From IMG/VR virus record IMGVR_UViG_3300029982_000021, positions 1-59,683 of that record: a DNA stretch of 59,683 nucleotides. One strand, written 5' to 3'. Of the stretch, positions 3,006 to 30,867 are shown in pieces; position 1 is the first letter of the stretch, and every line of letters begins with the position of its first letter. The notes below the pieces were generated by a model. It was not told the DNA's origin, did not search any database, and saw nothing but the letters and a program-made list of their open reading frames with translations. Source of the stretch: a virus. The position numbers were made by a program, and so were the translations under genes.

Positions 3006-3058
3006 AATATCATAAAATATTAAAATTGGTGATAATGTTGTTTACATTAAAAAATAAA
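3002..3058 (+). pseudogene. Possible remnant of a tagged SH3-like gene
   Basis: Reading ATA AAA TAT CAT AAA ATA TTA from 3002 gives IKYHKILKIGDNVVYIKK and a stop at 3056-3058. The first residues look like a tag with a lost ATG, and KIGDNVVYI matches the KIGDYVVI core of the tagged SH3-like family. A further short ORF at 3060-3119 (MKLFYDSILEFIEG...) may be another scrap. The remainder up to 3175 holds nothing else I can identify. Confidence 0.25.
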
Positions 3059-3175
3059 TATGAAACTTTTTTATGATTCTATATTAGAATTCATAGAAGG
3101 AAACATATACAAAAATTAAAGATATTTATAATGTAAATTTAAAAAAAGATTACACCTATTAACTATGACATATTT

Positions 3176-3871: not shown

Positions 3872-3874
3872 TTT

Positions 3875-4216
3875 TTATAAATTAAATTTATCAGTATCTA
3901 ATTTCAATTTTAAGTCATCTATTGTTTTAGAAAAATATTTTATTTTTGACGGATGTAAAAATATAGAATTATCTTCTTCAAAATAATCTTTAATAATATC
4001 AGGTATATTTTCATATTTAACTCTAATATTATCAAGCACACGACTAATATTAATAATTTTACCTATATTACTATTCAAAAAATTTCTATATATATCAACA
4101 TTATTTTTAATCATAAAATTTGACAATTTACTAGAATCAATTATCACATAATCTCCTATTTTAATATCTATTAAAGAATTCCAATTGAAACTTTCAAATT
4201 TTTTTAAATATTTCAT
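3875..4216 (-). CDS. Tagged small protein, SH3-like family
   Basis: A 113-residue protein starting MKYLKKFESF and ending DTDKFNL. The core has KIGDYVIID, then a helical insert, then NIGKIINIS, VKYENIP and IKYFSKT, the fullest form of the family consensus seen at 4739 and 50720. The role is unknown; packaging in the head is inferred from the tag. It sits in a tight minus-strand run of tagged genes with spacings of 3 bases on both sides. Confidence 0.7.
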   Translation of the reverse strand: MKYLKKFESFNWNSLIDIKIGDYVIIDSSKLSNFMIKNNVDIYRNFLNSNIGKIINISRVLDNIRVKYENIPDIIKDYFEEDNSIFLHPSKIKYFSKTIDDLKLKLDTDKFNL

Positions 4217-4219
4217 TTT

Positions 4220-4735
4220 TTATATATTAAAATTTTTAGCTAAAAATATTTCAGGATATTGTTTATATAAGTAATTATATAATTTTACTAATTCATCAAT
4301 ATCATATTTTTTTATATCGTCAATAGATTTTATAATAATATTATCAAATTTTATAATACTCAATTTATTTAATATAATAGGAATAACACTATTCAATTCT
4401 GATATTTTATTTAATTTTAATGTTAATGAATCTATTATTTCATAATAATAATTTATAGTATTATCAACGTCTTTTTGTGAAGTTAATTCTTTTAATTCAA
4501 AAACAATATTACGATCGGTATCATCAATAAGAATATCAATAGGTAAATTTAAATTTTCTTCCCAATAAGGAGTTGCAAATATTGTAATATTATCAGAATC
4601 CCATTCAAATGTATTACTCATGTTATCAAAATAAAATTCAAATCTATTAATAATTTTTTTATCATTTTTAATTTTATCTTGAAGTATTTCGACATAATCT
4701 TCATGAACACTTTCATTAAATCTTTTCAATTTCAT
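4220..4735 (-). CDS. Tagged hypothetical protein
   Basis: A 171-residue protein beginning MKLKRFNESVHEDYV, a variant of the tag with Asn-Glu-Ser at the expected cut site, and ending LAKNFNI, a variant of the C-terminal signature. The middle, FDNMSNTFEWDSDNITIFATPYWEE then IDILIDDTDRNIVFELKEL, looks like an alpha/beta domain and is not like the SH3-like family. No known motif was found. It is part of the tagged cluster, 3 bases from each neighbour. Confidence 0.65.
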   Translation of the reverse strand: MKLKRFNESVHEDYVEILQDKIKNDKKIINRFEFYFDNMSNTFEWDSDNITIFATPYWEENLNLPIDILIDDTDRNIVFELKELTSQKDVDNTINYYYEIIDSLTLKLNKISELNSVIPIILNKLSIIKFDNIIIKSIDDIKKYDIDELVKLYNYLYKQYPEIFLAKNFNI

Positions 4736-4738
4736 ATT

Positions 4739-5044
4739 TTATATATTAAATTTTTGAGCTTTCAAATACGCTTCTACATTTTTTTTGTCACTAGAAAAAT
4801 ATTTAATAGTATTTGTATTAAGTATAGCATATTTATCATCATCAAAATGTTTTTTTAATTCTTCTGGAATATTAAAATACTCAACCCAAGCAAGATCTGT
4901 TATTCTACCGTAATTATTTAACTTACCAATATTATTATTTATAAAATCGTTAAATTTTTCATTCATTGATTCACAATAAACTACGACATAATCACCAAGA
5001 ATAGGCAAATTATTATATTTTTCATATATTTTTAAATACTTCAT
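4739..5044 (-). CDS. Tagged small protein, SH3-like family
   Basis: A 101-residue protein beginning MKYLKIYEKY and ending KAQKFNI. The core shows ILGDYVVVY, NNNIGKLNNY, VEYFNIPEEL and IKYFSSDKKNVEAYL, closely matching the family at 3875 and 50720. The N-terminus has Ile-Tyr-Glu, fitting an I-x-E cleavage site. It overlaps the upstream gene 5041-5400 by four bases (ATGA), which suggests translational coupling. Confidence 0.7.
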   Translation of the reverse strand: MKYLKIYEKYNNLPILGDYVVVYCESMNEKFNDFINNNIGKLNNYGRITDLAWVEYFNIPEELKKHFDDDKYAILNTNTIKYFSSDKKNVEAYLKAQKFNI

Positions 5045-5400
5045 ATATTAAATTTATTTACTACTTGCCTTAAATTATGTCTATCAATTAGTTCTTTTTT
5101 TGAATCTGACATATCAAAAATATCTGTAATATCTAATGTAATAGTTCTTCCTACACCGAACCAATCATTAAGAGTAAACGGTATATTATTATATTTAACA
5201 TCTATCTCTTGGATACCAGAATAACTAGTAGTTATATTAACAATTTCACATATTGTATTATTTAAATATTCGACAAGAGTATTTTTTTGATTATCAGATA
5301 AAGAATATCCAAAATCTTTAAATTTAACGTTTAATATTACATAATTTCCTATTTTGACATCAGATTCTTTAAATGCTTCATATATTTTTAAATGCTTCAT
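5041..5400 (-). CDS. Tagged small protein, SH3-like family
   Basis: A 119-residue protein beginning MKHLKIYEAF (I-Y-E then Ala, a good prohead-protease-like site) and ending QVVNKFNI. The core includes VKIGNYVILN, ICEIVNIT, VKYNNIPF and a terminal helix. It is the first gene of the 3176-5400 minus-strand run and overlaps the next by four bases. It diverges from the tagged gene at 5446 across a 45-base AT-rich gap that must hold both promoters. Confidence 0.7.
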   Translation of the reverse strand: MKHLKIYEAFKESDVKIGNYVILNVKFKDFGYSLSDNQKNTLVEYLNNTICEIVNITTSYSGIQEIDVKYNNIPFTLNDWFGVGRTITLDITDIFDMSDSKKELIDRHNLRQVVNKFNI

Positions 5401-5445
5401 AGCATTATATATAAAAAATAAATATTTAATTTAATATATAATATC

Positions 5446-5847
5446 ATGAAATATATAAAAACCTTTGAAGATTTACGCAACACAGAAATATCAATCATGA
5501 ATTTAATGAATGACTGCATAACATATAATATTGATTTTTTTGATTTAATTTCTGAAATGATATTAAATCATATGATAACATTTCAATGCTTTAAAATTTA
5601 TAAGTATGATTTTAATTATTTAACTATAAATAAAAGTATAACTGGGAGGTGTGAAGATATTAAATTAGTAGATGAACTATCAAGTACTTATGAATCTGAT
5701 ATATTAGTAAAAATGAATAATAAATGGTATGAGTTGACAGATCGGAAAATAAATAAAACTCAATCATTCACTTTATATAATCATAAAAAAGGCAAGTTAG
5801 AAACTGAATTAGAATTAGCAAAAAGCACTAAAAAATTTAACATATAA
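5446..5847 (+). CDS. Tagged hypothetical protein
   Basis: A 133-residue protein beginning MKYIKTFEDL and ending STKKFNI, so it carries both signatures. The internal domain (ISIMNLMNDCITYNIDFFDLISEMILNHM, then KNNKWYELTD-like strands) is not the SH3-like core and I do not recognise it. It is the only plus-strand tagged gene in the first cluster and ends at a strong bidirectional terminator hairpin. Confidence 0.65.
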   Translation: MKYIKTFEDLRNTEISIMNLMNDCITYNIDFFDLISEMILNHMITFQCFKIYKYDFNYLTINKSITGRCEDIKLVDELSSTYESDILVKMNNKWYELTDRKINKTQSFTLYNHKKGKLETELELAKSTKKFNI

Positions 5848-5880
5848 AAAAGAGAAATGATTTAATCATTTCTCTTTTTT
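5846..5880. terminator. Bidirectional intrinsic terminator
   Basis: AAAAAAGAGAAATGA, a short TTTAA loop, and TCATTTCTCTTTTTT form a long perfect hairpin with A and T tracts on both sides. It lies between the converging genes 5446-5847 and 5883-6068. Confidence 0.8.
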
Positions 5881-5882
5881 AT

Positions 5883-6095: not shown

Positions 6096-7850
6096 TCAAA
6101 TTTGTTTATCTTTCCATATAAATTTTAATTGTCCAGAATCATAAATTCTATAAATTTTTCTTTCTAACATAATCTCACTTTCAGTTTTTTCACTTGAATA
6201 TCCTTCTTTTATTAAAATAGATTTGCCAAAATTAAATCTATTTTTACGAATACCATCAATAACATAAGAATAATTAGATTGAGATTTATGTACTAATTCA
6301 AATCCTAAATTTTCATATATTTTATCATAACTCCAACTTCTATCAAAATATGCTATAATTTCCGTTGGTTCATAATTTATAACAAAATATTTGAATAATT
6401 TATCATATCCGCCAATAATATTAGTATTTAACTTATTACAAAATCTTAATAATTCATATGATTCAATATTATTTTCAAAATTCATTAAACTAATTAATTC
6501 ATTATTATGATATAATCCTATTTTAATTTGTGAATCTATAAATCCTTGAATATGATTTTTTTCTAAAAAATCTTTAATAACTTCACTATTAGTTATTTCT
6601 TTTATATCACAATCATTTACATCTATAATATTTGTTTTTATACTTAAAATATTTAAAATATTTGATTTTACTATATCATTTTTATACATCCAATCATCTT
6701 CCCATATATGAATTAATTTAATACCATTTTCGTCACATAATTCAGTCTTTTTTAAATGATAATCACTTGATTTGTGCTGTTCATCATGCCAATAAATACC
6801 ATTAAATTCAAATGCAATATTTATTTCTGGTAAATAAATATCTAATTCAAAAGGATAAATAATTTTTTTGCTATTAACTACTATTTCGTCTTTATAATGT
6901 TTTTGTATAAAATTTAATAATTCGAATTCACTCATTGAAGTTTGATTGAAATGTTCTGGAAAGCATTCAGTACATTTATAATTAGCAAATTGCTTTCTAG
7001 ATTTATATAATTCAAAACTAATTTTAAATGTATGATTTTTTCCAACATCACAATTCATCAAATATTCTCTTGTATCATAATCAACATCAATTATATTATT
7101 ATCTTGATTCAATATTTTATTATTTTTAATAGTATTTTTTCTTTTCTTTTGTGCTCTGTCTAATATCTCTTTATTTTCATAAGGATTAAATACTCCATAA
7201 TTTTTAAATAATGTTTCTTTAGATTTTTTATAAAAATCTTCATTTTGAAATGTATATTTTACTCCATAACGGGACATCATAGTATTAGTATAATTTTCTT
7301 TATAATTACTTTTTTTAAATGATTCGATTCTTCTTTTTACAATTTCTTCTGAATCGTTTAAATTATATACACCATAATTTTTAAATAATGTTTTTTTAGA
7401 TTTTTCTTGTATTTCAATATTTTGCATAGGACTATTACCGCCATATCTTTCCTGATTGGTTTTTATCATTTTTTCTTTAATATCATTATTCATTCCTGGT
7501 GCTTTAGTTCCATATTTTATATATGAATTATCTTCTTTTTGTTGTTTAATATTCGGATCTTTACTCGTACAACCTTTAGAGCAATGTTTATGATATCCTA
7601 TCGTTGAATTCTTAAACTTAACTATATTATTACAATTTGGATTTGAACAATATAAAATTTCTTTTAAATCATTAACATAATGATAAATTTTTTCTTTAAA
7701 AGGTAAATCTATCAATTTATCACTACTACAAAATTCTATAACATCTTTAAAAATTTCAGGATAATTATTTTTAATGTATTTCTCATTATACATTTTTCCT
7801 GATGTACCATTTTCTTTTTTTATTTTTTCTATATTTTCTTCTTTATTCAT
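6096..7850 (-). CDS. Homing-type endonuclease, Vsr/EDxHD-like
   Basis: A 584-residue free-standing endonuclease. An N-terminal zinc finger (CSNPNC...HCSKGC, residues 68-94) is followed by several copies of a DNA-binding module of the form LFKNYGVxNxxxxxE (about 115-235). The nuclease core has ELD (335-337), EFNGIYWH (348-355) and HIWEDDW (381-387), the pattern of Vsr-fold phage homing enzymes of the I-Bth0305I type. A C-terminal domain (about 410-584) containing RFCNKLNTNIIGGYDKLFKYF is shared by many phage enzymes of this kind. The gene sits just downstream of the sheath gene and its terminator. Its start codon abuts a 13-bp inverted repeat that could control translation. Confidence 0.8.
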   Translation of the reverse strand: MNKEENIEKIKKENGTSGKMYNEKYIKNNYPEIFKDVIEFCSSDKLIDLPFKEKIYHYVNDLKEILYCSNPNCNNIVKFKNSTIGYHKHCSKGCTSKDPNIKQQKEDNSYIKYGTKAPGMNNDIKEKMIKTNQERYGGNSPMQNIEIQEKSKKTLFKNYGVYNLNDSEEIVKRRIESFKKSNYKENYTNTMMSRYGVKYTFQNEDFYKKSKETLFKNYGVFNPYENKEILDRAQKKRKNTIKNNKILNQDNNIIDVDYDTREYLMNCDVGKNHTFKISFELYKSRKQFANYKCTECFPEHFNQTSMSEFELLNFIQKHYKDEIVVNSKKIIYPFELDIYLPEINIAFEFNGIYWHDEQHKSSDYHLKKTELCDENGIKLIHIWEDDWMYKNDIVKSNILNILSIKTNIIDVNDCDIKEITNSEVIKDFLEKNHIQGFIDSQIKIGLYHNNELISLMNFENNIESYELLRFCNKLNTNIIGGYDKLFKYFVINYEPTEIIAYFDRSWSYDKIYENLGFELVHKSQSNYSYVIDGIRKNRFNFGKSILIKEGYSSEKTESEIMLERKIYRIYDSGQLKFIWKDKQI

Positions 7851-7907
7851 AAACTTTATATATGTTTCTATTTCTCCTATATATAAATATTTTAATATAA
7901 AGTTTAT
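7849..7907 (-). promoter_or_regulatory. Leader hairpin touching the endonuclease start codon
   Basis: ATAAACTTTATAT (7849-7861) and ATATAAAGTTTAT (7895-7907) are a perfect 13-bp inverted repeat with a 33-base loop. On the mRNA the downstream arm runs into the ATG at 7850-7848, so two bases of the start codon are paired. The loop holds AGGAGA. This resembles the start-codon sequestration known for T4 homing endonuclease mRNAs; the regulation itself is inferred. Confidence 0.5.
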
Positions 7908-7944
7908 AAAAAAAGAGAAATAATTAAATTATTTCTCTTTTTTT
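7908..7944 (-). terminator. Intrinsic terminator after tail sheath gene
   Basis: AAAAAAAGAGAAATAATT, AA, ATTATTTCTCTTTTTTT: a symmetric hairpin with a U tract on the minus strand, 20 bases after the sheath stop codon. It means the endonuclease downstream probably needs its own promoter within 7851-7907. Confidence 0.75.
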
Positions 7945-7963: not shown

Positions 7964-10900
7964 TTAGCTACCAACTGATGAAAATCCCATAGATTGTATA
8001 TCACCTTTCTTCATTATTGTAATATTATTAACAATAATACCCATTCCTTTTATCAACTCTACATACGTGTCAATTACGCCCATCTGTAAATCTATAACAT
8101 AATCAGTATTATTACTTTCATCACAAACATTCCAAAAGTCATATAATGCGTTGTTATCCAACATATCTTTACAGATTTTATTAGCATTGTATTTGATTTC
8201 GGAACGAATTTCTGCAGTATTAAATTGCCATTGATATTTTAATAGCATATCGTACATTCTATTTTCAAGTTCAATAAGAACTTCTCTTGAATGTAAGAAG
8301 CTAAGAGATGAGTATGGAAATACTTGTGCTGATGCATCGTCATTAATACAATATCCATTATTTAATTTATATACAATAGGATTTGCATTCATGCCATGTA
8401 AATAATCAAGATCAGTATCATTAAAGTCCATTTCAGTTTTAGTTATAGTTTGAACTCTACCATTAGTAATACCAGCGCATATTGTCCAAGGCACCATACC
8501 TGCTGTATTAGATACAAACTTTTGCATATAAGTTGTTGCTGCGTAAGATGCAGGCGGAACCCATTTTGGTACACCATTATCATATATTCTTATATATGGG
8601 AAGAAATAACCAACACAACTTCTACCATCAACAGAAACATTATCTACAGCGTCTGTATAAGGTTGAGCAAATTGATAATAATAATCTGGATTTTTACTAT
8701 CATCTGCTCCAGCAGCAACATATTGAATATTTAAAGTATAATCGTCATTTATAAATGATGGATTAGTTGAATTTTTAAATATTTTAGCTGATGGCATACT
8801 TATAAATCCTAAGCAATTAAGTTTCAATCCACAAACATTAGCAAGTTGTTGTTTTGATCCATATCCGTCCATTGGAGTCAATCCTAATCCAAATGAATCT
8901 ACAAGATATCTCCATGATATTTTATTTTTATCTGCCAGAGCCTTTCCAAGATTTGTATCAATATCAATAATATCCAATATTGAATTTTGTCTAATATCAG
9001 TACCATCTGGTATAGATGCTACATTTACTGTAAAAGGCGATAATACCAATGCTTTATATTCATCAACATATTCATCAATTTCTGGATATGTAAATGTTTG
9101 TAATGATGTAGTACCACTTGGATTTAATGAATTATAATTATCAATTTTAATAGGAGAATCTGTATAAATATATTTATTATTAACATTTGTTGGATCATTT
9201 TTAATATTTATAATTCTAGTTATTTTTCTTGGAACAGATCCTTCTAAATATCCTTCTCCATTAGGTGCAGTCCAATATGATTCATCATAATAAGCGGTTA
9301 AAAAATTACCTATTGTTATTTCTGAATATCTATTTTTATCTATAGATATTTGTCTACAATCTGTAAGATCATCACCGTACCATTGATCGATTTGAACTGA
9401 TTGTTTCCAATTAGATCTATCGGAATATACTATTAAACTATAATTATAATAGTTAGAATTATCCCAATCTGTATGTGAAACACTATATGTTATTGGAGGA
9501 TTGATTGCAGATAAAAAATTGACAGTTAATATATTATTTTGATCAATAAACATATCCAAATATATCTTAGTTGTCAATCCACTATTATTATTAACATAAA
9601 AATAATCATCGTTATTAATATTACCATTATAATAATCTAAATAAAATTGAGAATATGTTGCTACAATACCATTAGTTCCTGATGATAAAACAGAATTTAT
9701 AGTTACCAATGTATTAGTATCAACAAAATTTTCATGTAACAAAAATTCATTGTCCACATAATATAATAAAAATGTATTACCTGAATGACATAAAGCAGGA
9801 GAATCACTATCAATATAAATTTTAATATTCGCATTTTGTAATGAAGTAGCCTCAGTTGCTAAAACTGAAACAACAGGATCTTTATCTCCACCAATAAAAT
9901 CACCACTTGTTTGATGAATAAAAACGCTCTTTGCAGTAATATTTTCATATATTTCATAAAAACATTGAGCTAATCTAAGATAATTATAATCATTATAAAT
10001 TCCTGTTTGACCAGATGTGCCATTAAATTGAATATTCATATAATTTTGTGTATCAAAACCATCAGTAATTACTGATTCATATCCTGTTGTAGTTCCAAGA
10101 GCAATATAACCATTAGTTCCTACAGATATAGAATTATATGTTAATGTTGCAGTTAATCCAGAATTTAATATATACACATATCCTAAAATTATAGTACTAT
10201 CTAAACTATATAAATAATCTGGTAAAATTGCTCCTGTATTAGAATTAGATTCTGTTCCTTTTAGCACGTTAATAGTATTATCATTAGTAAGATAAAGAAC
10301 ATCATATCTTGATCCATTTGGATATGAAACACCATCTGATGCATTAACAACAAATGTATTACCAGTAATAAGTACTCCATTTAATACATAATATGCGTTA
10401 GGATCAATAGTAAACGTTGTTAATAAAGTTGTTCCTGTTGTTCCTGTTAATGATGTTGTATTACAACTAACACCAAATATATTTCCATTCACATATGCAC
10501 CTGATCTAACATCTACATTATTTGACACAAAATCTTGATTATAACTATCATAATTATTAGTAATAACATTATTAGTTGAATCCAAATATGTTTGAGAATA
10601 TGATATTTGTTCATTAAGAATTGTATTATATGACATAAAATTAATACTACTAACATCTTCTCCAACAATTGTTCCACCTATAATATCCAAACTACTTACT
10701 CTAAAATCAGCTTCAAGTAATACATCTTCATTATATGTACAGAATAAACCAGTTTTATCTGTATCATTATTTATAATATTTTTAATGTACATATCTCTAT
10801 TATTCAAATCTTTAAAATATGGAATTAAAGAACAATCATAATTTGCAAGAACAGATACAGTACTTTCATTAAGAAATGAAGATACGTTATTTTTAATTAA

Positions 10901-11629
10901 TCCATTTTTATCAAAATACTTACCATATGTAGTATCATTAGATAATGTTTTATAATCTGACCAATCACCAGCTACTACAATGATAGTTACTAAATAATCT
11001 GAAATCCAATCTCTATAATCAAGATATGATGGTACTTTTGTTCTATCACCGTACCATGATTCTGCTGTAACATCGAAACCAGTTATAGATGATTTAAACA
11101 TAAATATACTAATATCTGTATATCCCATGTTTGTTATATGAAAAAGTCTATCAGTATCTTGAACACCATAATTATTTGCTTGTACAACATTTAAAAATGA
11201 ATCAGTATCTCTTTCCCAGAAAGCTTGTCTATTATAAAATGATTCATAAGCAGATCTTATAACATTACTATTTTGAGATTTTACACTTGCTGACACACCT
11301 ATTGATTGCCAGTCCACTTTATCTCTATTTGGATCTGTTGCTAAAAGATTTAACGCCCAAACAGGACCGCTTTTTAGCATTTGTTTAACTGTTTTATGAA
11401 AAAATGATCCCTTATTTTCTAATCTAGTATCATCATCTCCAAATATTGTACTAAAATCTGTAGGATTTGTAACATAAAGTGGAGTATTAAAAGGACCTTT
11501 TTTTGAAAAACCAGGAACTAAATTTATTAAAACATTTTGTACTGGAAGTTGAACAATACTCTGGTCAATTTCCTCAAAGAAAATACCTGGTCTTTTGTAT
11601 TTTCCGAAATCTGCGTCTTTTATTGGCAT
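7964..11629 (-). CDS. Contractile tail sheath protein (gp18-like)
   Basis: A 1221-residue protein. The N-terminus (MPIKDADFGKYKRPGIFFEEIDQSIV, then PVQNVLINLVPGFSKKGPFNTPLYV) is the typical start of T4 gp18-like sheath subunits. The C-terminus (YNANKICKDMLDNNALYDFWNVCDESNNT, then VELIKGMGIIVNNITI) is the conserved sheath C-domain. T4 gp18 is about 660 residues, so roughly 500 extra residues, rich in Thr, Asn, Tyr and Ser, lie in the middle (about 300-850) and probably form surface-exposed beta domains. The subunit polymerises around the tail tube and contracts at infection. It is the only tail gene on the minus strand here; the baseplate block is at 32.8-40 kb on plus. Confidence 0.9.
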   Translation of the reverse strand: MPIKDADFGKYKRPGIFFEEIDQSIVQLPVQNVLINLVPGFSKKGPFNTPLYVTNPTDFSTIFGDDDTRLENKGSFFHKTVKQMLKSGPVWALNLLATDPNRDKVDWQSIGVSASVKSQNSNVIRSAYESFYNRQAFWERDTDSFLNVVQANNYGVQDTDRLFHITNMGYTDISIFMFKSSITGFDVTAESWYGDRTKVPSYLDYRDWISDYLVTIIVVAGDWSDYKTLSNDTTYGKYFDKNGLIKNNVSSFLNESTVSVLANYDCSLIPYFKDLNNRDMYIKNIINNDTDKTGLFCTYNEDVLLEADFRVSSLDIIGGTIVGEDVSSINFMSYNTILNEQISYSQTYLDSTNNVITNNYDSYNQDFVSNNVDVRSGAYVNGNIFGVSCNTTSLTGTTGTTLLTTFTIDPNAYYVLNGVLITGNTFVVNASDGVSYPNGSRYDVLYLTNDNTINVLKGTESNSNTGAILPDYLYSLDSTIILGYVYILNSGLTATLTYNSISVGTNGYIALGTTTGYESVITDGFDTQNYMNIQFNGTSGQTGIYNDYNYLRLAQCFYEIYENITAKSVFIHQTSGDFIGGDKDPVVSVLATEATSLQNANIKIYIDSDSPALCHSGNTFLLYYVDNEFLLHENFVDTNTLVTINSVLSSGTNGIVATYSQFYLDYYNGNINNDDYFYVNNNSGLTTKIYLDMFIDQNNILTVNFLSAINPPITYSVSHTDWDNSNYYNYSLIVYSDRSNWKQSVQIDQWYGDDLTDCRQISIDKNRYSEITIGNFLTAYYDESYWTAPNGEGYLEGSVPRKITRIINIKNDPTNVNNKYIYTDSPIKIDNYNSLNPSGTTSLQTFTYPEIDEYVDEYKALVLSPFTVNVASIPDGTDIRQNSILDIIDIDTNLGKALADKNKISWRYLVDSFGLGLTPMDGYGSKQQLANVCGLKLNCLGFISMPSAKIFKNSTNPSFINDDYTLNIQYVAAGADDSKNPDYYYQFAQPYTDAVDNVSVDGRSCVGYFFPYIRIYDNGVPKWVPPASYAATTYMQKFVSNTAGMVPWTICAGITNGRVQTITKTEMDFNDTDLDYLHGMNANPIVYKLNNGYCINDDASAQVFPYSSLSFLHSREVLIELENRMYDMLLKYQWQFNTAEIRSEIKYNANKICKDMLDNNALYDFWNVCDESNNTDYVIDLQMGVIDTYVELIKGMGIIVNNITIMKKGDIQSMGFSSVGS

Positions 11630-12762: not shown

Positions 12763-13383
12763 ATGACATCAACTAAAAATAATGAACTTGAAATACAGTT
12801 CGAAGCTCGCACAGGTATAAATTTTCAAGATTTTTATAAAAATCACAAACCTAAATTAATATGGTATATCACAAAATATACTAAAGATTCTGGAATAGCA
12901 GAAGATCATGTAGAAGATGCATTTATTCAAGCATTACTGAATATTGAAACATATAAAAGACCAGATGAAGGAGGAGCACAACTAAATACTTGGATTTATA
13001 AAATAGCAGAAAATATTGTCAAAAAAGTACACAAAGATAATGAAAGGTTACCAACAGATTCAATTGATAAAGATTTAGCAATAAATTTTAGTTTATCTAA
13101 TGTGATAGCATATGATGATAGCAAAAAACCAATAGAAGAATATAATATTTTTGTTAAAAAAGCATCTATCATAAAAGATGCTATATACAATTTACCAGAA
13201 AAAGATTCAAAATATAAAAAAGTTCTTATAATGAGAGAAATCGAAGGTATGCAATATAAAGAAATTTCAGATGAACTAAATATAAATCTATCTACTATAA
13301 AATCTCAAATTAAAAAAGGAAGAACAATAATTAGAAAAAAAGTAGAAAAAAAATTCAAAGATATAGATTATAATGAAGGTTAA
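12763..13383 (+). CDS. Sigma-70 family (ECF-like) RNA polymerase sigma factor
   Basis: A 206-residue sigma factor with region 2 at about residues 20-90 (FYKNHKPKLIWYITKYTKDSGIAEDHVEDAFIQALLNIETYK...LNTWIYKIAENIVKK) and region 4 at about 140-195 (LPEKDSKYKKVLIMREIEGMQYKEISDELNINLSTIKSQIKKGRTIIRKKV). It is the two-domain ECF architecture and probably directs host RNA polymerase to late phage promoters, the role of gp55 in T4. It has an unusually long, structured leader and overlaps the next gene by 11 bases. Confidence 0.85.
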   Translation: MTSTKNNELEIQFEARTGINFQDFYKNHKPKLIWYITKYTKDSGIAEDHVEDAFIQALLNIETYKRPDEGGAQLNTWIYKIAENIVKKVHKDNERLPTDSIDKDLAINFSLSNVIAYDDSKKPIEEYNIFVKKASIIKDAIYNLPEKDSKYKKVLIMREIEGMQYKEISDELNINLSTIKSQIKKGRTIIRKKVEKKFKDIDYNEG

Positions 13384-20998: not shown

Positions 20999-21010
20999 TT
21001 AATAATTAAT

Positions 21011-21043
21011 AAAAAAAGTCACTCAAATTGAGTGACTTTTTTT
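21011..21043 (+). terminator. Intrinsic terminator after MoxR gene
   Basis: AAAAAAAGTCACTC, AAATT, GAGTGACTTTTTTT just after the MoxR stop codon. Confidence 0.8.
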
Positions 21044-21061
21044 ATTTAAAAAGTAAAATTT

Positions 21062-21289: not shown

Positions 21290-21303
21290 AAAATTCACAA
21301 AAT

Positions 21304-21334
21304 AAAAAACTACTAATTAAATTAGTAGTTTTTT
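21304..21334. terminator. Bidirectional intrinsic terminator
   Basis: AAAAAACTACTAATT, A, AATTAGTAGTTTTTT between the converging Cys-rich ORF and the minus-strand endonuclease unit. Confidence 0.75.
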
Positions 21335-21464
21335 ATTTGAATAATCTTATGAACGGATCTTTATGAAAATCATAACTTTCATTATAAGAAATACTCATTC
21401 TTAATTTCTTTGTTATTTGAAAATGATACTTATAAATCCTCAAATTAAATATTAAATTACTCAT
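21333..21464 (-). CDS. Small hypothetical protein
   Basis: A 43-residue ORF (MSNLIFNLRIYKYHFQITKK ... ending DPFIRLFK) three bases after the endonuclease stop and ending at the terminator. It is too short to recognise; spacing and codon pattern make it plausible as the last gene of the unit. Confidence 0.35.
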   Translation of the reverse strand: MSNLIFNLRIYKYHFQITKKLRMSISYNESYDFHKDPFIRLFK

Positions 21465-21467: not shown

Positions 21468-22499
21468 TTAAAATAATTTTTTGAAATACTTATTAAACTC
21501 AGAATAATTTTTATCTAAAATTAATAAATAATATTTACCTGCTCTTTTAACAGATTTTCTTTTTATATCAATAACTTCTTCTCCTCCTTGTTTCTCTAAT
21601 ATATAAGATGATTTAATCTCAATCTCCATATCATCAATACAAAAATCAGTAATTGTCCTTAATCCATATGAATAATCTTCTTCTAAAAACTTATATGTAT
21701 GTCCATTTTCAACTTTATTAAGTATTTGATACTTATCACATAAATCTAAAAAGTCTTCTTCATATGAACTCTGATAACACAAATCAGTATCTTTATATCT
21801 CTTAATGTTATAACAATTTCTAAAATCCAAATCAAAATTTGAATTATTTTCTATCATTCTCTTACTTGCACTCTCCCTATTCTTCATCATTTTAGAAGGA
21901 TGATCTACTTCATATCTTTCAAGCATAGTTGTTTTATTTTTATCATAAAATAATTTAGTACTAAAAAAAGATACTGTACCATATCTTTCTAAACAAGTTT
22001 TTTTAATTTTATTTAAAATTTCATTTTTTTCATTTTCATTTTTTTCATTTTTAGATTTTGATATTTTTTCTTTAACTTCATCTAAAAATGATACATTATC
22101 TACTCCATATCTTTCTTTAACAGTTTGTTTAACTTTCTCTTGATTCCATTGACAAGGAAAACAACTTGGTGAGCAATAAATATTTGGTATTCCTCTATGC
22201 CATTTTACATCTTCTCCACAATTTACACATTTAGGTATACCATATTTTTTTATATAACCTTCCTTTAAAGATTTATATTTTTTATGTTCACTACTTTTAG
22301 TCAAAAATGTACCTCTATAAAAAGGTGCATCATCATCACAATAACCACATTGACATTTTGGAGTTATACCATCTAATTCATATTTAATAATATAATCTTT
22401 TAAAGATATATTGTGTTCTTCCATTAAATGAATTGTAAATTTTCCAGTAGTATAAGGAAAAGTTAATCCACATATTTCACATTTTTTATATTTTACCAT
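21468..22499 (-). CDS. Homing-type endonuclease, PD-(D/E)XK-like
   Basis: A 343-residue protein with an N-terminal finger (CEICGLTFPYTTGKFTIHLMEEH, C7-C10-H24-H29), more Cys pairs (CQCGYC, CVNC, CSPSC), then copies of the ERYGVxxxxxxxE DNA-binding module (about 128-200). The C-domain has SSYEEDFLDLCDKY (244-257) and ITDFCIDDMEIEIKSSY (283-299), with Asp285, Glu294 and Lys296 as a PD-(D/E)XK active site. It lies directly downstream of the RNR gene. The ATG is buried in a nested hairpin of the mRNA. Confidence 0.75.
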   Translation of the reverse strand: MVKYKKCEICGLTFPYTTGKFTIHLMEEHNISLKDYIIKYELDGITPKCQCGYCDDDAPFYRGTFLTKSSEHKKYKSLKEGYIKKYGIPKCVNCGEDVKWHRGIPNIYCSPSCFPCQWNQEKVKQTVKERYGVDNVSFLDEVKEKISKSKNEKNENEKNEILNKIKKTCLERYGTVSFFSTKLFYDKNKTTMLERYEVDHPSKMMKNRESASKRMIENNSNFDLDFRNCYNIKRYKDTDLCYQSSYEEDFLDLCDKYQILNKVENGHTYKFLEEDYSYGLRTITDFCIDDMEIEIKSSYILEKQGGEEVIDIKRKSVKRAGKYYLLILDKNYSEFNKYFKKLF

Positions 22500-22547
22500 A
22501 ATCTATATATTAAATTATGGTAGTCATAACCGTGAAATATGTGGATT
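22465..22547 (-). promoter_or_regulatory. Nested hairpin that buries the endonuclease start codon
   Basis: AATCCACATATTTCAC (22465-22480) and GTGAAATATGTGGATT (22532-22547) are a perfect 16-bp inverted repeat. Inside it TACCATAAT (22494-22502) and ATTATGGTA (22514-22522) form a second perfect 9-bp stem around an 11-base loop. The start codon (22497-22499) is inside the inner stem. Messages carrying the whole leader should hide the start; a message starting inside would not. T4 I-TevI uses such a device. Confidence 0.65.
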
Positions 22548-22569: not shown

Positions 22570-25128
22570 CTAGTCACAGCGCGAATATCCACATTTTCTG
22601 CATGTCCGACATCCATTCTCATAAACCAAGTCATCTCCAGTTGCTCCGCAATTTGGACATTTTTCTCCAACCACAGCAGAATTTATATATTTCTTAATAA
22701 TTCGTTTCACTCCACTTTTCCATGTACCAAAAGCTGCATTGTCTGTCATTTGTAAAGTATCGATAAGGTGAATAACACTTGGTAAGTGAATTCTATGTCT
22801 TAAGAAAGCTGATAATAATTTACTTGTATTCCATAGTTCTCTATTAAAAGCTCTATTTAATCCTTCCATAGTCACATTATATCCATCTTTATCTTTATAA
22901 ACAAAGTCATATCTACTCTTACCTTCTTCACCATTTTTTGGTTCAGTTTTAAATCTAACAATTTCTCCTTTTTCTACACTAACAGGAATAAGAAATGATT
23001 CAGCCAAACCAGTAAATAATTCATAAGGATATTTTTCACCTTTATCATCTACATTCAATCCTAAAAATCCAATCCATTTCTCACCTTTATTTGTAAATCT
23101 AACAACATCGCATTCAAGTTTTTTTGGACGTTTTTTTGCATTATTTTCACCTGATTCTAATACAACATTTTGAGTAGTACCTTCATTTGACATGATAACT
23201 CCTTCTCTAGATCCATCACGATAAACAGTGATTCCTTTACATCCACTTTTCCATCCTGTTTCATAAACTTTTGAAACAAGTTCTTCTGTTACATTATTTG
23301 GTAAATTTACTGTTACTGAAATAGAATGATCAATAAATTTTTGAATACTACCTTGCATTTTTACTTTTTCTACCCAATTAACATCATTAGCAGTTGCTTT
23401 ATAATATGGTGATTTTTCAATAATTGGATTTAAATCTACATCTTTCATTAATTTAACTTCATCTACATTATATCCATTTATTTCCAACCATACTTCAAAT
23501 TTCTTATGAAATACGTAATATTCTTCCCATTTTTGTCCTTCTGCATCTATGAAGTCTACTCTACCATTTTTATCACTTGGATTTATCTTCCTTCTTCTCT
23601 TATATGATACTTTATATGCAGGTTCAACACCTGATGTAGTTTGAGATAAAATGCTTACACTACCAGTAGGCGCAATCGTCAACAATGCTATATTTCTTCT
23701 ACCATATTCTTTCATCATAGTATCTAATTCAGGATCAATATCTTTCAATCTCTGAACAAATGGATTATTTATCTCATTATTATAATTATAAACAGAAAAT
23801 GCTCCTCTTTCTTTTGCCATAATAGCAGATGATTTATAAGCATATACAGCTAAATTTTTATGAACTTCTGTTGAAAAATCAGTTGCTTCTGTTGTTCCAT
23901 AAGTCATACCAAGAGCAGCTAACATATCACCTTCAGCAGTCACACCTAATCCTGTTCTACGCCCTTTAATAGTCATATTTTTTATTTTGACCCATGTTTC
24001 TTTTTCAACCATTTTTGTATTCTCGTTTTCTGGATCAGATTCAATTTTTTCTAGAATTTTATCTATTTTTTCAGATTCCAAATCAACAATATCATCCATA
24101 AATCTTTCAGCATAAATTGTATGTTCTTTAAATAATTTCCAATCGAAATATGCATCTTTAGTAAAAGGATTTATAACATAACTATAAAGATTTATTGCTA
24201 ATAATCTACAAGAATCATATGGGCATAATGGCAACTCTCCACAAGGGTTTGTTGATACAGTTTTATATCCATATTCTTGATAGCAATCTGCGACAGATTC
24301 TCTCATTACAGTATCCCAAAATAATATACCAGGTTCTGCTGATTTCCATGCATTATGTATAATTTTTTTCCAAAGTTTATTTGCATCTATTTGTTTTGTA
24401 ATTAATGGAGTTTCAGAATCAATTGGATATAATTGAGTAAACATTCCAGAATTCATAGCTGCTTCCATAAATTCATCCGTTAATTTTATTGATATATTCG
24501 CTCCTGTTACTTTTCCTTGCTCTAATTTAGCATCAATAAATGATTCAGAATCAGGATGAAGAACAGAACAAGATAACATCAACGCACCCCTTCTTCCTCC
24601 TTGAGCAACTTCATTTGTTGAATTTGAATATCTACTCATAAAAGGAACTAAACCTGTTGAAGTTAATGCAGAATTTTTAACAGGCATTCCTGCTGGCCTA
24701 ATATGTGAAAGATCATGTCCAACTCCTCCACGCCTTTTCATTAATTGAATTTGTTCTTCATCTACTTGCATAATTGATCCATAAGAATCAGAAGGATTAC
24801 CAATAACAAAACAATTTGATATGGACACTACTTGATTATCATTACCTATCCCTGACATTGGAGAGCCCTGAGGTATAATATATTTAAAATCTTTTATCAA
24901 ATCAAATATAAAATCTTCTGATAACGGATTTTCATATTTTAATTCAATTCTATATATTTCTTTAGCTAATCTTCTATGCATATCATCAGGAGTCAACTCA
25001 TAATAAACTGTTTCATTATCTACCGTTTCTTTTAATGCATACTTATTAACCCAAACATCAGCAGCTAATGTATCTCCTTTGAAATATTTTAATGCTGCAT
25101 CAAACGCTTCTTCTCTTTTAAAACTCAT
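22570..25128 (-). CDS. nrdJ: Ribonucleotide reductase, class II (adenosylcobalamin-dependent)
   Basis: An 852-residue reductase. VSISNCFV (Cys106), RRGGVGHDLSHIRP, NPCGELPLC (294-302) and APTGSVSILSQTTSG are the catalytic barrel motifs. The C-terminal tail CPNCGATGDDLVYENGCRTCRKCGYSRCD is the zinc/redox cysteine tail typical of NrdJ, and no NrdB-like small subunit is in view. It makes deoxynucleotides from ribonucleotides using vitamin B12 as radical source, independent of oxygen, so the host must supply or make cobalamin. It lies downstream of the helicase/UvsX genes on the same strand, with endonuclease genes on both sides. No cobalamin riboswitch is visible in the short upstream gap. Confidence 0.9.
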   Translation of the reverse strand: MSFKREEAFDAALKYFKGDTLAADVWVNKYALKETVDNETVYYELTPDDMHRRLAKEIYRIELKYENPLSEDFIFDLIKDFKYIIPQGSPMSGIGNDNQVVSISNCFVIGNPSDSYGSIMQVDEEQIQLMKRRGGVGHDLSHIRPAGMPVKNSALTSTGLVPFMSRYSNSTNEVAQGGRRGALMLSCSVLHPDSESFIDAKLEQGKVTGANISIKLTDEFMEAAMNSGMFTQLYPIDSETPLITKQIDANKLWKKIIHNAWKSAEPGILFWDTVMRESVADCYQEYGYKTVSTNPCGELPLCPYDSCRLLAINLYSYVINPFTKDAYFDWKLFKEHTIYAERFMDDIVDLESEKIDKILEKIESDPENENTKMVEKETWVKIKNMTIKGRRTGLGVTAEGDMLAALGMTYGTTEATDFSTEVHKNLAVYAYKSSAIMAKERGAFSVYNYNNEINNPFVQRLKDIDPELDTMMKEYGRRNIALLTIAPTGSVSILSQTTSGVEPAYKVSYKRRRKINPSDKNGRVDFIDAEGQKWEEYYVFHKKFEVWLEINGYNVDEVKLMKDVDLNPIIEKSPYYKATANDVNWVEKVKMQGSIQKFIDHSISVTVNLPNNVTEELVSKVYETGWKSGCKGITVYRDGSREGVIMSNEGTTQNVVLESGENNAKKRPKKLECDVVRFTNKGEKWIGFLGLNVDDKGEKYPYELFTGLAESFLIPVSVEKGEIVRFKTEPKNGEEGKSRYDFVYKDKDGYNVTMEGLNRAFNRELWNTSKLLSAFLRHRIHLPSVIHLIDTLQMTDNAAFGTWKSGVKRIIKKYINSAVVGEKCPNCGATGDDLVYENGCRTCRKCGYSRCD

Positions 25129-26800: not shown

Positions 26801-27679
26801 TTATTTGAGAAATTCTAATTTCTCAATGATATTCTCATCATATTTTATTCTTATTAATCTTATATTATTATTTAAGCAAAATTCATTTTTAATATTATCA
26901 TTTTTATTTGTTTTAATTAAATTATCTTCTCCATATATTGGACTATAATGCTGTATACCATCATATTCTATACATATATTATAATCTATTAGATAAAAAT
27001 CAAAAGGTAATTTTTTATTATTTTTACATTTTTCAAATTTTTTTTGTCTTTCGTGTTTAATAAATTTATCAATTAATATATTTTCAATTTCAATCTCACC
27101 TTTAGATTCACTACACAGCGGGCAGCCATTAGCTTGATGTATATGATTGTTCAATCTTTGATTAAATTTACCATGTTTTTTGCAATAAATAGTTAAAATA
27201 GTTTCATTCATTCTTTTATCTAACTCAAAATCATCATACTTATATTTAAAATTATGTATATTATTAGCTTTTTCTAATATTTCTTTTTTAGTATAAACAT
27301 TATTTGCACATTTTGGACATCCATGGCCATTTAAATGTAGTTTAGTATTTTGTGAAAAATATCCATGTCTATCACAATAAATAATAATATCGCTACTATA
27401 ATTAATAAAAATAGTTTTATCATATTTATATTTAAAATTATGAATAATATTAACTTTTTCTATATAATTAATTGTAGTAAAATGATTATTTCCACATTCC
27501 GAGCATCCATGTCCATCCAAATGAGATTTAGCATTTTGAATAAATTCTCCATGTTTAGGACATACAATTTTCACATAACAATCATTATTTATATAATTAG
27601 TATTTGGATAACTATAAAAATTATTATGAATTATATTTGATCTTTCTATAAATATATCATTAGTTAATCTTTTTCCCAT
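26801..27679 (-). CDS. Homing-type endonuclease with CxxHG zinc modules
   Basis: A 292-residue paralogue of 25206-26075 with three copies of the CPKHGEFxQNxxxHxxGHGCxxC module and a Vsr-like core: HERQKKFEKCKNNKKLPFDFYLIDYNICIEYDGIQHY (Asp and Glu in FDFYL..EYDG). It starts six bases after the end of the helicase C-terminal gene, so it is translated from the helicase message. Confidence 0.75.
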   Translation of the reverse strand: MGKRLTNDIFIERSNIIHNNFYSYPNTNYINNDCYVKIVCPKHGEFIQNAKSHLDGHGCSECGNNHFTTINYIEKVNIIHNFKYKYDKTIFINYSSDIIIYCDRHGYFSQNTKLHLNGHGCPKCANNVYTKKEILEKANNIHNFKYKYDDFELDKRMNETILTIYCKKHGKFNQRLNNHIHQANGCPLCSESKGEIEIENILIDKFIKHERQKKFEKCKNNKKLPFDFYLIDYNICIEYDGIQHYSPIYGEDNLIKTNKNDNIKNEFCLNNNIRLIRIKYDENIIEKLEFLK

Positions 27680-27685
27680 TTTTTA

Positions 27686-28780
27686 TTATTTAACTCCTAC
27701 TAAAACATCATTCTCCATAGTTAAAAAATTTGTATTAAAATCAAATCTAACTTGTTCTTCATGATGTTCACCATCTCTTAACTTTAATATTTTTAATCTA
27801 TAACTATTATTTCTTTTCATTTCGGGATTTCTTATGATCCCCCAGACTGAATCAGATGTATCTGCTATCGCTTTACTTTCAGGAATAGCATTAAGTGTAA
27901 TATCAGAAGCACCCCAAACGCTCTTATCGGTTTGAGTTGCAGTTATAACTGCACATTCATACTTATCTGCTACACGTCTTAATCCTTCAGCTAAATGTTT
28001 ACCTTTTAGGTAAAGCATATTAGTAATATCATAGCCTTTTTCAATTGACATAATATTTATATAATCTACGATTACCATTCCAACTTTAATTCTTTTAACT
28101 TCTTCGAATTTTTTAATATAATTATCAATATCAGTAACAGTACAATCACTGGTATTATATTTTTTAACAAATATTTTACCTGGTTGAGCATCGAATAAAT
28201 TACCAACAGTTGATTGTGATTTAAGATTATTTAATTTTTGTTTCATGAAAACTGGATCTTTTGATTTTTCATCATACTCATCAGATTTAATTTTAAGTCT
28301 CATAGAACCTAATCTCTTCATTACTTTTCTTGTAGCCATCTCTAATGTAATAAGTAATACATTAGTACCAGCGTTTGCTGCATTAGTAGCTATATTATGT
28401 AACCACATTGAATTGTGGGATAAAATTCCATCTGAATAAAATCTATGATTATCATCAGATAATGATAAATCATACATATTAGATGATTTTTCTGTTTCAT
28501 AAACTTCTGTCACATCACTTATACCATTTTTTGTTATTATTTTATCTCCAATTTTCAAATATTTAACAAAAACTTCATTGAAATTTTCATCAAAAACAAT
28601 ATGAGTATCTGCGCATATCAAACTAAAATCATCCGATGTTTTTAATACCCACTCAACATATTCTATAGTCTTACCAATTTCTTTAATATCAGACCAACCA
28701 TTATCAGTTTCAATTTCCCAATCTTCTACATCAAATGTTTCTACAAATTTTTTATATATATTATCACTTATCATATTCAA
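27686..28780 (-). CDS. gp41/DnaB-like helicase, C-terminal part, with C-intein
   Basis: A 364-residue protein in two parts. Residues 1-123 are the C-terminal fragment of a split intein: ADTHIV (57-62) is the block B TxxH, KIGDKIIT (76-83) a Hint strand, and NMYDLSLSDDNHRFYSDGILSHN (101-123) ends with the splice His-Asn. Residues 124-364 are the RecA-like motor of a replicative helicase starting SMWLHNIATNAANAG, with LITLEMA and Walker B GMVIVDYINIMS. After splicing, Ser124 joins the N-terminal half and completes the P-loop GETNVGKS. The first codons overlap the 91-residue ORF upstream by 17 bases. Confidence 0.85.
   Translation of the reverse strand: MNMISDNIYKKFVETFDVEDWEIETDNGWSDIKEIGKTIEYVEWVLKTSDDFSLICADTHIVFDENFNEVFVKYLKIGDKIITKNGISDVTEVYETEKSSNMYDLSLSDDNHRFYSDGILSHNSMWLHNIATNAANAGTNVLLITLEMATRKVMKRLGSMRLKIKSDEYDEKSKDPVFMKQKLNNLKSQSTVGNLFDAQPGKIFVKKYNTSDCTVTDIDNYIKKFEEVKRIKVGMVIVDYINIMSIEKGYDITNMLYLKGKHLAEGLRRVADKYECAVITATQTDKSVWGASDITLNAIPESKAIADTSDSVWGIIRNPEMKRNNSYRLKILKLRDGEHHEEQVRFDFNTNFLTMENDVLVGVK
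28412..28780 (-). mobile_element. C-terminal fragment of split mini-intein
   Basis: 123 residues including blocks B, F and G and ending HN before Ser. Because block B is on this half, the N-fragment is very short (34 residues), the atypical split seen in AceL-TerL-like inteins. The two fragments together are only 157 residues and contain no endonuclease domain. Confidence 0.8.
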
Positions 28781-29039
28781 CTTCTTCCTTTTGTTTAAAT
28801 TCTATATCATCATTATCATATAAAATATTATAAAACACTTCAATTATTTTATCAGTTAATATTAAATTACCAATATATGTATCTCCAACAATTGATTGTT
28901 CTCCATCATATATTTCAAAATTATCAAATTGTTCTATTTTATCAGATAAATATTTTGATATATGTATTTCATCATATTCACCTACATTTTCTTCTATAAA
29001 TTCTATTATATACTTTTCAAAATCACTCATATTAATCAT
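28764..29039 (-). CDS. Hypothetical protein in the fractured-gene gap
   Basis: A 91-residue acidic protein (MINMSDFEKYIIEFIEENVGEYDEIHI... ending EVEYDK) with no recognised motif. It lies between the endonuclease and the helicase C-half, overlapping the first by 8 bases and the second by 17. An alternative start is the fourth Met-codon position (MSDFEKY). It may belong to the inserted cassette. Confidence 0.5.
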   Translation of the reverse strand: MINMSDFEKYIIEFIEENVGEYDEIHISKYLSDKIEQFDNFEIYDGEQSIVGDTYIGNLILTDKIIEVFYNILYDNDDIEFKQKEEVEYDK

Positions 29040-29292
29040 TTTTTATAAAATCTATACATTGCTGTACAACTTTTTGTTTATTATTATTGTAATCATATTC
29101 CCAAATTATTAATGCTTTATAACCAAGTTTTTCAATTGAATCTATTTTAATTTTATCATAATTCCATATATCTTTTGCAAACATTTGTTTACTTTTATTA
29201 AAAAAATCTTCTTTATAAATTAAAGGATTGCAATGCCAATAATCACCATTAAATTCTATAACCTTTTTTTTTACAAACAAAATCATATGCAA
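29032..29292 (-). CDS. Endonuclease C-terminal part, out of frame
   Basis: An 86-residue frame whose useful part, VIEFNGDYWHCNPLIYKEDFFNKSKQM...YKALIIWEYDYNNNKQKV, is the catalytic C-terminus of the Vsr/EDxHD-like endonuclease at 29249. The two frames meet at a run of nine A's on the minus strand (29264-29272): with eight A's one reads DFVCKKKVIEFNGDYWH without a break. So this is a frameshifted gene, a slippage product or an assembly/sequencing error. Confidence 0.65.
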   Translation of the reverse strand: MHMILFVKKKVIEFNGDYWHCNPLIYKEDFFNKSKQMFAKDIWNYDKIKIDSIEKLGYKALIIWEYDYNNNKQKVVQQCIDFIKND

Positions 29293-30145
29293 ATGTTTTA
29301 CCTATATCTTTAATATATCTATAAAATTGATTATCACCAAAATAAAATTTATCAAAATTTTTAGAAACTTCAGAAAATAATTCTATTTCACTATTAGAAT
29401 ATGGTTCTTTTCTAAATTTTACGAAAAGTCCATCTTTATACATAATTTCAATTTTTTCACTCCAATTTTTTTGTCTTTCAGTCCAAATATTCAATCCTTC
29501 AGATTTACCATATTTTTGAATACATTTTTCAATTGTAAATGTTTTCTGTCTCTCTTTTATTTTATATTCTGATTCTTCTTGTGAATATCCTTTTTTTAAC
29601 CAATATCCTATTTGAGTAGTATTAACATCTTGATATAATTCTGGATTTTCTCTACGTTTTTTCCATGTTTTAGTATGAATATCATCAAAAGATTTTTTGA
29701 CTTCTATTTCAGAATCTTCTTGTGAATATCCTTTTTTTAGCCAATATTCAACGCATTGTCTGGATTTTTCTTTAAAAAAATTTTCGTTTTTTTCAAAACT
29801 TTTTTGTAATCCATTTTTAGTTTTTATACTATTATCTTTAATTCTACTATTTAATAATTTGATTGAATCTATTTCAGATAAATTATATTTATACATTAAA
29901 AATTCATATGTAGCTGTTGCTCTAGTTTTACCTAAACATATTTTAGAATTACATATTCTATGATATCCATTTGTAATATTTTTAAAAATTGCTTCTTCTC
30001 CGCAGAAATAACAAATACCTTCATTTTCATCTTTTAAATATTCATCATAATATTCTTTTTTAATTATTTCGTTATGATATTTCGTTAAATGAATAGACAA
30101 ACCTTTAGTAGTATCAAATTCTTTTCCGCATATTTCACATTTCAT
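29249..30145 (-). CDS. Endonuclease N-terminal part in the helicase fracture
   Basis: A 298-residue protein with a C2H2-like finger at the start (CEICGKEFDTTKGLSIHLTKYH), more zinc ligands (CYFCGEE...CNSKICLG) and repeated helical modules with W(L/K)KKGYSQEDSEIEVKK. It ends prematurely (CKKKGYRI) at the A9 run where the catalytic part continues in another frame. It lies exactly between the two helicase halves, the arrangement known from fractured genes with split inteins and a free-standing Vsr-like homing enzyme. Confidence 0.7.
   Translation of the reverse strand: MKCEICGKEFDTTKGLSIHLTKYHNEIIKKEYYDEYLKDENEGICYFCGEEAIFKNITNGYHRICNSKICLGKTRATATYEFLMYKYNLSEIDSIKLLNSRIKDNSIKTKNGLQKSFEKNENFFKEKSRQCVEYWLKKGYSQEDSEIEVKKSFDDIHTKTWKKRRENPELYQDVNTTQIGYWLKKGYSQEESEYKIKERQKTFTIEKCIQKYGKSEGLNIWTERQKNWSEKIEIMYKDGLFVKFRKEPYSNSEIELFSEVSKNFDKFYFGDNQFYRYIKDIGKTFAYDFVCKKKGYRI
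29264..29272 (-). other. A9 homopolymer at the endonuclease frameshift
   Basis: Nine T's on plus (nine A's on the coding strand). Losing one A restores a single endonuclease frame from 30145 to 29032. Confidence 0.75.
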
Positions 30146-30147
30146 TT

Positions 30148-30867
30148 TTATATTTTATTTTTAATTGAATCATAAAAATCCCCTATACTAATTTCTTCTA
30201 TTTTTCCTGTTTTTTTATTTCTAATTTTTATAAATGTCTGATAATGAGAGCATTTACCAACATTAGTTTCCCCCATAATAACATTTAACGTTGATTTACT
30301 CCATCCTCCTCCTAAAATATTATCTATACATGGCCATCCTGAAGGTATACAATTTTTAGAAATCATTTGTTTATGAGATTCAGGGTCATCAAAATCAGAT
30401 CCTAAATCGTTATCATCATCATCAACTAAAAGTACGTTACCAAACATACCTTTCATTTTTTGGGCAATTTCGAGAGCATTATCATAATTTACATCTTCTA
30501 TACCTCGGACCATATCAATACTTTTTAGTACATCGCCTTTTAATTGGTTTTGAATTTTCCAACCTTTGAACATTGGTAATAACCATTCAGGGCTAAACTC
30601 GCTATTATCAGATTGAAGAAGCATTTTTATTACTTTATCATTTACTTTATTATCTGAATCAGCCAATTTAACCATTGAATAGATTTGCTTAATGCTTGGT
30701 ACTGTATGACTATCGCTTTTAATATATTCTTCTCTTATTACAGTATAAATGAATTGAATATCCGAATTTCTAAAGAAAAAAGGATCTACTTTTGAAAATT
30801 GATCAGGATTGTCCAAAATGTGAACGAAATAATGTCGTTCCATATTTGTGTTTGTTGTATCTGCCAT
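30148..30867 (-). CDS. gp41/DnaB-like helicase, N-terminal part, with N-intein
   Basis: A 239-residue protein. Residues 1-205 are the helicase N-terminal domain and the start of the motor, ending IPSGWPCIDNILGGGWSKS then LNVIMGETNVGK, the first seven residues of a Walker A motif. Cys206 begins the intein N-fragment (CSHYQTFIKIRNKKTGKIEE ... SIKNKI, 206-239). Splicing in trans with the product of 27686-28780 would give a helicase of 446 residues, close to T4 gp41 (475). The gene follows UvsX on the same strand. Confidence 0.85.
   Translation of the reverse strand: MADTTNTNMERHYFVHILDNPDQFSKVDPFFFRNSDIQFIYTVIREEYIKSDSHTVPSIKQIYSMVKLADSDNKVNDKVIKMLLQSDNSEFSPEWLLPMFKGWKIQNQLKGDVLKSIDMVRGIEDVNYDNALEIAQKMKGMFGNVLLVDDDDNDLGSDFDDPESHKQMISKNCIPSGWPCIDNILGGGWSKSTLNVIMGETNVGKCSHYQTFIKIRNKKTGKIEEISIGDFYDSIKNKI
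30151..30252 (-). mobile_element. N-terminal fragment of split mini-intein
   Basis: 34 residues starting at Cys206, directly after GETNVGK. It contains block A only (FIKIRNKKTGKIEEISIGDFYD). Its stop is followed within two bases by the endonuclease start at 30145. Confidence 0.8.

Follow-up and report, generated by a model that had tools for sequence, protein, structure and literature searches.

Endonuclease gene and its neighborhood

The window (the whole stretch of viral DNA analyzed here, 59,683 nt of the IMG/VR record IMGVR_UViG_3300029982_000021, from a large, uncultured, tailed phage) carries on its minus strand a gene for a class II-type ribonucleotide reductase (RNR; 22570–25128; Pfam PF02867, E 9.5e-87; phrog_84, E 2.2e-106), the presumed source of read-through transcripts, and 70 nt downstream of it on the same strand a gene at 21468–22499. 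The product of the latter scored 50.9 bits against DUF7487 (PF24308), above the curated cut-off of 27, and matched phrog_3339 ('homing endonuclease') at E 2.6e-13; solved structures (PDB) gave no sequence match. Zinc-knuckle cysteines are common to six homologues, in all of which E247, D285 and E294-x-K296 are invariant. The predicted C-terminal domain runs in the order helix (245–256), strands (281–296), helix (307–319) and strand (323–328), which is that of PD-(D/E)XK nucleases, and has the D...(D/E)-x-K signature. In a structural comparison of the predicted catalytic domain, I-Bth0305I ranked first (Foldseek probability 0.99, E 0.06), with TnsA a close second. Because the overall quality of the structure model is moderate (pLDDT 74, pTM 0.35), the PD-(D/E)XK assignment rests on the motif and the local fold. 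Overall, the gene at 21468–22499 is that of a DUF7487 homing endonuclease with a modeled PD-(D/E)XK-type catalytic domain and predicted cleavage activity; the preliminary description of this DNA had named it a PD-(D/E)XK endonuclease, which the DUF7487 and phrog_3339 matches, the invariant motif and the predicted fold bear out.

The distribution of the endonuclease gene resembles that of a mobile element: among relatives it is present, absent or decayed at one site. Close phages with an RNR 89–91% identical have no endonuclease gene at the site downstream of RNR, in two others (L016 and L013) a decayed remnant is left there, and in L023 the site is occupied by an orthologue of 63% identity. 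A pattern search among genome contigs found no relative, and no near relative was found among annotated phages. The last codons of RNR (window 22570–22620) differ in both amino acids and codons from those of the endonuclease-free relatives and include TCG CGC in a genome of 23% GC, which could reflect either co-conversion or escape or protection from cleavage. In the endonuclease-free L006 and L008 (5556–5690 in each), a short stem-loop follows RNR, which resembles the outer hairpin arms described below in place and partly in sequence; they may be what is left after endonuclease loss, as with the remnants in L016 and L013, or, alternatively, an older element.

An endonuclease also follows RNR in the 484-kb phage L049 (LR756508.1; 69–4041), where a homologous zinc-finger region is fused to a GIY-YIG-like N-terminus; inspection by eye revealed no hairpin at this gene. 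The 3′ end of the class II RNR gene may be a recurrent endonuclease target. In L023 (2887–5934) the RNR open reading frame (ORF) has intein-like insertions besides the endonuclease downstream. Elsewhere in the window (26801–30867), a DnaB-like helicase appears to be in pieces, between or beside which lie intein-like sequence and ORFs for endonucleases (29249–30145 and 29032–29292, and 26801–27679 after it).

Nested stems over the start codon

Two nested stems can form in a minus-strand transcript that runs from RNR into the endonuclease gene. The 5′ arm of the outer stem (22532–22547, extending to 22553) is non-coding, and its 3′ arm (22465–22480, extending to 22459) codes for the first zinc knuckle; the two are complementary at 16 of 16 positions and, when extended, at 91% over 22 nt. 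Nested within it, an inner stem pairs 22494–22502 with 22514–22522 (9/9) and can be extended to 12 nt at 92% (22494–22505 with 22511–22522), the start codon (ATG, 22499–22497) lying inside its 3′ arm. The perfect 16- and 9-bp inverted repeats around and including the ATG, which had been noted earlier, are thereby confirmed, and the 136-nt hairpin region of the minus strand has a minimum free energy of −38.1 kcal/mol (z = −7.3), with none of 200 shuffled sequences equally stable.

Perfect inverted repeats of at least 16 bp within 120 nt number eight in the window and zero in 30 shuffles of it, several of the eight being compact A/T-rich terminator-like hairpins between or after genes. Long A/T-rich hairpins flanked on each side by A and T tracts follow genes at 5844–5882, 7908–7944, 21008–21046, 21300–21338, 51056–51087 and 52997–53062, and are likely bidirectional terminators. 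When the start regions of 74 genes of the window were ranked by structure, the endonuclease gene came first (z = −6.8), followed by the gene at 6096–7850 (z = −5.4), the start codons of both being nearly fully paired in these folds. Moreover, the structure burying the start at 21468–22499 was the strongest among 675 gene starts of the phage group. No Shine-Dalgarno-like sequence precedes the ATG of the endonuclease gene; it is the start codon and the codons downstream that are paired instead.

The AUG is predicted to be unpaired with a probability of 0.001 in read-through RNA vs. 0.91 in an RNA starting at the AUG. The earlier expectation that read-through RNA from the RNR side would fold over the start thus agrees with prediction, and the stems are kept by compensatory change (see below); fold prediction and covariation both point to a stable hairpin over the translation initiation region of upstream transcripts.

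Promoter-like box in the loop

The loop contains a promoter-like box, TTAATATATA (22504–22513, minus strand), 4 nt before the ATG. Across 608 gene starts, boxes of the form TTWATATATA occur approximately 143 times in the 90 nt upstream, compared to 12 expected (12-fold enrichment), mainly at 4–8 and 13–29 nt from the ATG and with no clear −35 element accompanying them. In two phages (G012 and G013) no box was found upstream of genes. Within the window, the box precedes the tail sheath gene (7964–11629), the gene heading the tail/baseplate cluster (32863), a sigma factor gene (12763–13383) and both endonuclease genes with a start hairpin, and is absent upstream of RNR, RecA, the DnaB parts and MoxR. 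Since it stands before sheath, tail and sigma genes and not before RNR, RecA and DnaB, TTWATATATA is probably a late promoter, and by its sequence and genome-wide placement the box in the loop is a candidate late promoter inside the hairpin.

Late promoters of phage T4 have a single element at about −13 to −6 and no −35. By analogy, transcription would be expected to start some 5–7 nt after the box, and as the box ends at 22504, the 5′ end of the gene's own transcript would fall at about 22499–22497, beside the AUG. The 4-nt spacer would thus place the start within 1–2 nt of the AUG, so that neither 5′ arm can be included, and the own transcript is predicted to be leaderless or nearly so; with T4-like spacing it could even start 1 nt inside the AUG. 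In the preliminary description, a transcript beginning in the loop was to escape the fold by starting between 22503 and 22531. The escape itself fits the promoter-like box in the loop and the predicted unpaired AUG; the start is rather to be placed at the AUG.

A candidate reader of the box is the phage sigma factor encoded on the plus strand at 12763–13383 (Sigma70_r2 and r4 above cut-off; phrog_1740, E 2e-23), although the link between the two is itself an inferred one. A TTTATATATA box lies 22 nt upstream of the ATG of this sigma-70-type gene, whose product is a candidate late sigma factor, possibly self-amplifying. Apart from these genes, many short proteins encoded at 631–5847, 46829–51055 and 54087–59420 begin with MKYLKxFE or similar and end with KFN(I/L), with unrelated middles; many of the genes have a TTWATATATA box just 4–7 nt before the ATG, and the shared ends of their products may be tags for processing or sorting.

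Proposed dependence of translation on transcript origin

The arrangement is best read, with a probability of roughly two in three, as a switch in which translation of the homing endonuclease depends on the origin of its transcript. RNA reading through from RNR would carry the 5′ arm, which would base-pair with the codons of the first zinc knuckle, and the nested inner stem would cover the start codon, leaving ribosomes unable to initiate. The late-type TTWATATATA box in the loop would start transcripts at or beside the AUG, and such RNA, being devoid of the 5′ arms, would be free for translation. With translation limited to the loop-initiated RNA, production of the enzyme would be confined to the time when the box promoter is active, probably late. 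Genes in this clade of large phages are mostly without evident Shine-Dalgarno sequences, and the predicted leaderless transcripts would offer a clean test of translation gating without Shine-Dalgarno in phages.

Conservation of the fold among relatives

In L023/L103, 21 bp pair perfectly, and the remnant in L016 keeps the fold (−39.5 kcal/mol). In two homologues at another locus (L107 and L109), the same zinc-knuckle codons pair with sequence upstream, in a less stable fold, and sequestration is predicted to be incomplete, with the AUG unpaired at 0.79 and 0.24, respectively. As to homologues following RNR in distant phages, L106 has a weak short stem only, and in L104 an unrelated hairpin buries the ATG, with a AATATATA box in its loop.

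Covariation was evaluated on a small sample, an alignment of both arms from five phages (48 columns) with the arm registers set by hand, in which 91.8% of the cells pair and 13 cells are compensatory. Both sides have changed at 7 of its 17 pairs, one synonymous codon position being among these. The covariation score was 0.482 vs. 0.181 in shuffles, none of 500 shuffles reaching 0.482, and shifting the partner arm by 1–3 columns abolished the signal. The pair 22467–22545 occurs in three Watson-Crick forms (U-A, A-U and C-G) at a synonymous site: its coding side falls on the third position of a glycine codon (GGA in the window, GGT in L103, GGG in L016) and is free to vary, and its non-coding side tracks the coding side as RNA pairing predicts. 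G-U pairs occur within the stem in L016 and L109. Through these compensatory changes, the relatives support a conserved RNA fold.

The same data bear on the two main rivals, both less well supported than the switch. It is unlikely, though conceivable, that the inverted repeat acts as an operator at the DNA level, a dyad around the promoter-like box to which the endonuclease or another protein binds, repressing its own transcription. The box does sit between symmetrical arms, and I-TevI is known to bind an operator over its own late promoter (PMC2988022), but the arms are 16–21 bp long and about 50 nt apart. Moreover, a protein site would be expected to conserve sequence and not pairing, whereas the arm sequence diverges among the phages with pairing kept, G-U included, and synonymous changes in the coding arm are matched by the non-coding one. 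Operator and RNA-hairpin roles could also coexist.

A somewhat weaker candidate is that the hairpin belongs to the 3′ end of RNR, as a terminator or mRNA-stabilizing stem, its overlap with the endonuclease start being secondary. This would fit the short stem-loops found soon after RNR in L006 and L008, close relatives without the endonuclease, although these may be the scars of its loss. It is hard to reconcile with a 3′ arm lying within conserved zinc-knuckle codons and with L107 and L109, whose genes are not beside RNR and pair the same codons. As for termination, no terminator-like site was found on the minus strand between RNR and the endonuclease gene, on which ground the terminator reading was rejected.

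Same layout at other gene starts

The second homing endonuclease gene of the window (6096–7850, minus strand; phrog_3339, E 3.1e-109), whose start region ranked second in structure, has the same layout as the first: a 13-bp inverted repeat with the 5′ arm at 7895–7907, the 3′ arm at 7849–7861 overlapping the ATG (7850–7848), and a TTTATATATA box at 7878–7887 in the loop. A scan of 608 gene starts in six related contigs, blind to function, used a rule set after part of the data had already been seen: a perfect stem of at least 13 bp, a 3′ arm covering the ATG or at most 12 nt from it, and [AT]ATATATA in the loop. Eleven starts matched, compared to 0.9 expected under a null preserving the box and the dinucleotide composition; for stems of at least 15 bp, the figures were 7 and 0.0.

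Endonucleases of three or four folds account for 8 of the 11 starts (Fisher p = 4.6e-8 with 43 endonuclease genes counted; p = 8e-6 if there are 80). Three of the eight are DUF7487 endonucleases (21468–22499, its orthologue and 6096–7850), three are of the LAGLIDADG type (L085:2552, L084:574 and L075:10036), one is a GIY-YIG T5orf172 endonuclease (L089:11391) and one is weakly Vsr-like (L086:444); the case of L084:574 is weak, its stem being of low complexity and stopping 12 nt short of the ATG. The upstream neighbors of these endonuclease genes, where seen, lie on the same strand at a distance of 51–113 nt. The preliminary description had suggested that a solution similar to that of T4 I-TevI may have arisen in a different endonuclease class. 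The PD-(D/E)XK enzyme indeed has the layout, but it is not confined to this class and extends to LAGLIDADG enzymes.

The hairpin is not a general feature of endonuclease genes, an idea rejected because 35 of the 43 counted lack the layout. In L093, an orthologue of the second endonuclease, and in the related GIY-YIG genes L073 and L081, the hairpin is absent or weakly paired. A second contig set of 949 further gene starts gave no new endonuclease with a stem of at least 13 bp; a SegE-like GIY-YIG gene in this set (L157:9383) has a 12-bp stem over the ATG, the loop of which contains a box.

Two of the three non-endonuclease starts are one divergent pair with a shared repeat (L087). Divergent genes with similar first codons (L087:3997–4948; window 5041–5847) produce inverted repeats over both starts with boxes between them, and such pairs are a source of false hairpin matches. 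A functionless repeat, arisen by chance or mutation in a genome of 23% GC or as a by-product of inverted gene duplication, is nevertheless very improbable at the endonuclease start: head-to-head genes with similar starts (L087 and the MKYLK-type genes) do create start-spanning repeats, and A/T-rich stems of 12–14 bp occur at other genes, but the endonuclease gene has no inverted duplicate at the locus, the arms are not of low complexity, the null falls far short of the matches counted above, and compensatory change maintains the pairing.

More broadly, unrelated homing endonucleases of this large-phage clade (PD-(D/E)XK, LAGLIDADG, GIY-YIG and perhaps Vsr-like) may have convergently gained a late promoter box within a start hairpin, such that only late mRNA with a short leader or none is translated; we find this broader proposal evenly balanced between acceptance and doubt. 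If true, timing an endonuclease by the origin of its transcript would be a repeatedly evolved solution, reached in a separate phage clade and by enzymes of other folds.

Comparison with known systems

The enzyme's best structural match, the Vsr-like phage homing endonuclease I-Bth0305I, reached a TM-score of 0.62 normalized to the target, with an E-value of just 0.06 and 17% identity; its N-terminal architecture differs, the enzyme described here having zinc knuckles. In a text search with most subscription papers outside its reach, no publication evidently reported the arrangement for PD-(D/E)XK or LAGLIDADG phage endonucleases.

In phage T4, a hairpin that covers the ribosome binding site and encloses a late or middle promoter is found at the genes for I-TevI, I-TevII, I-TevIII and segB, and in Aeromonas phage Aeh1 the start region of mobE, a free-standing HNH homing endonuclease gene inserted within the class I RNR gene nrdA, is likewise hidden by a hairpin (PMC2988022). 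The earlier comparison with I-TevI was therefore apt, the logic being shared by all five (PMC2988022). As in the T4 systems, the gene at 21468–22499 encodes a homing endonuclease (by DUF7487 and phrog_3339), the long upstream RNA folds by prediction and hides the translation start, and a candidate promoter within the hairpin would give RNA too short to fold. The T4 enzymes are GIY-YIG or HNH endonucleases of T-even phages with a hidden Shine-Dalgarno sequence; sequestration of the latter does not apply here, where the start and first codons of a PD-(D/E)XK enzyme are hidden. Further differences are the phage clade, the lack of an evident Shine-Dalgarno sequence, the TTWATATATA box and an own mRNA predicted to be leaderless.

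With Aeh1 mobE, the gene shares a place in an RNR transcription unit and a hairpin-hidden start, but mobE encodes an HNH enzyme within class I nrdA, while the DUF7487/PD-(D/E)XK gene lies after a class II-type RNR gene, beyond its stop codon. Unlike in both T4 and Aeh1, the coding sequence here serves as the 3′ arm. Overall, the logic is already known for the GIY-YIG and HNH endonucleases of T-even phages, and what differs here is the enzyme fold, the phage clade, the promoter sequence and the coding 3′ arm.
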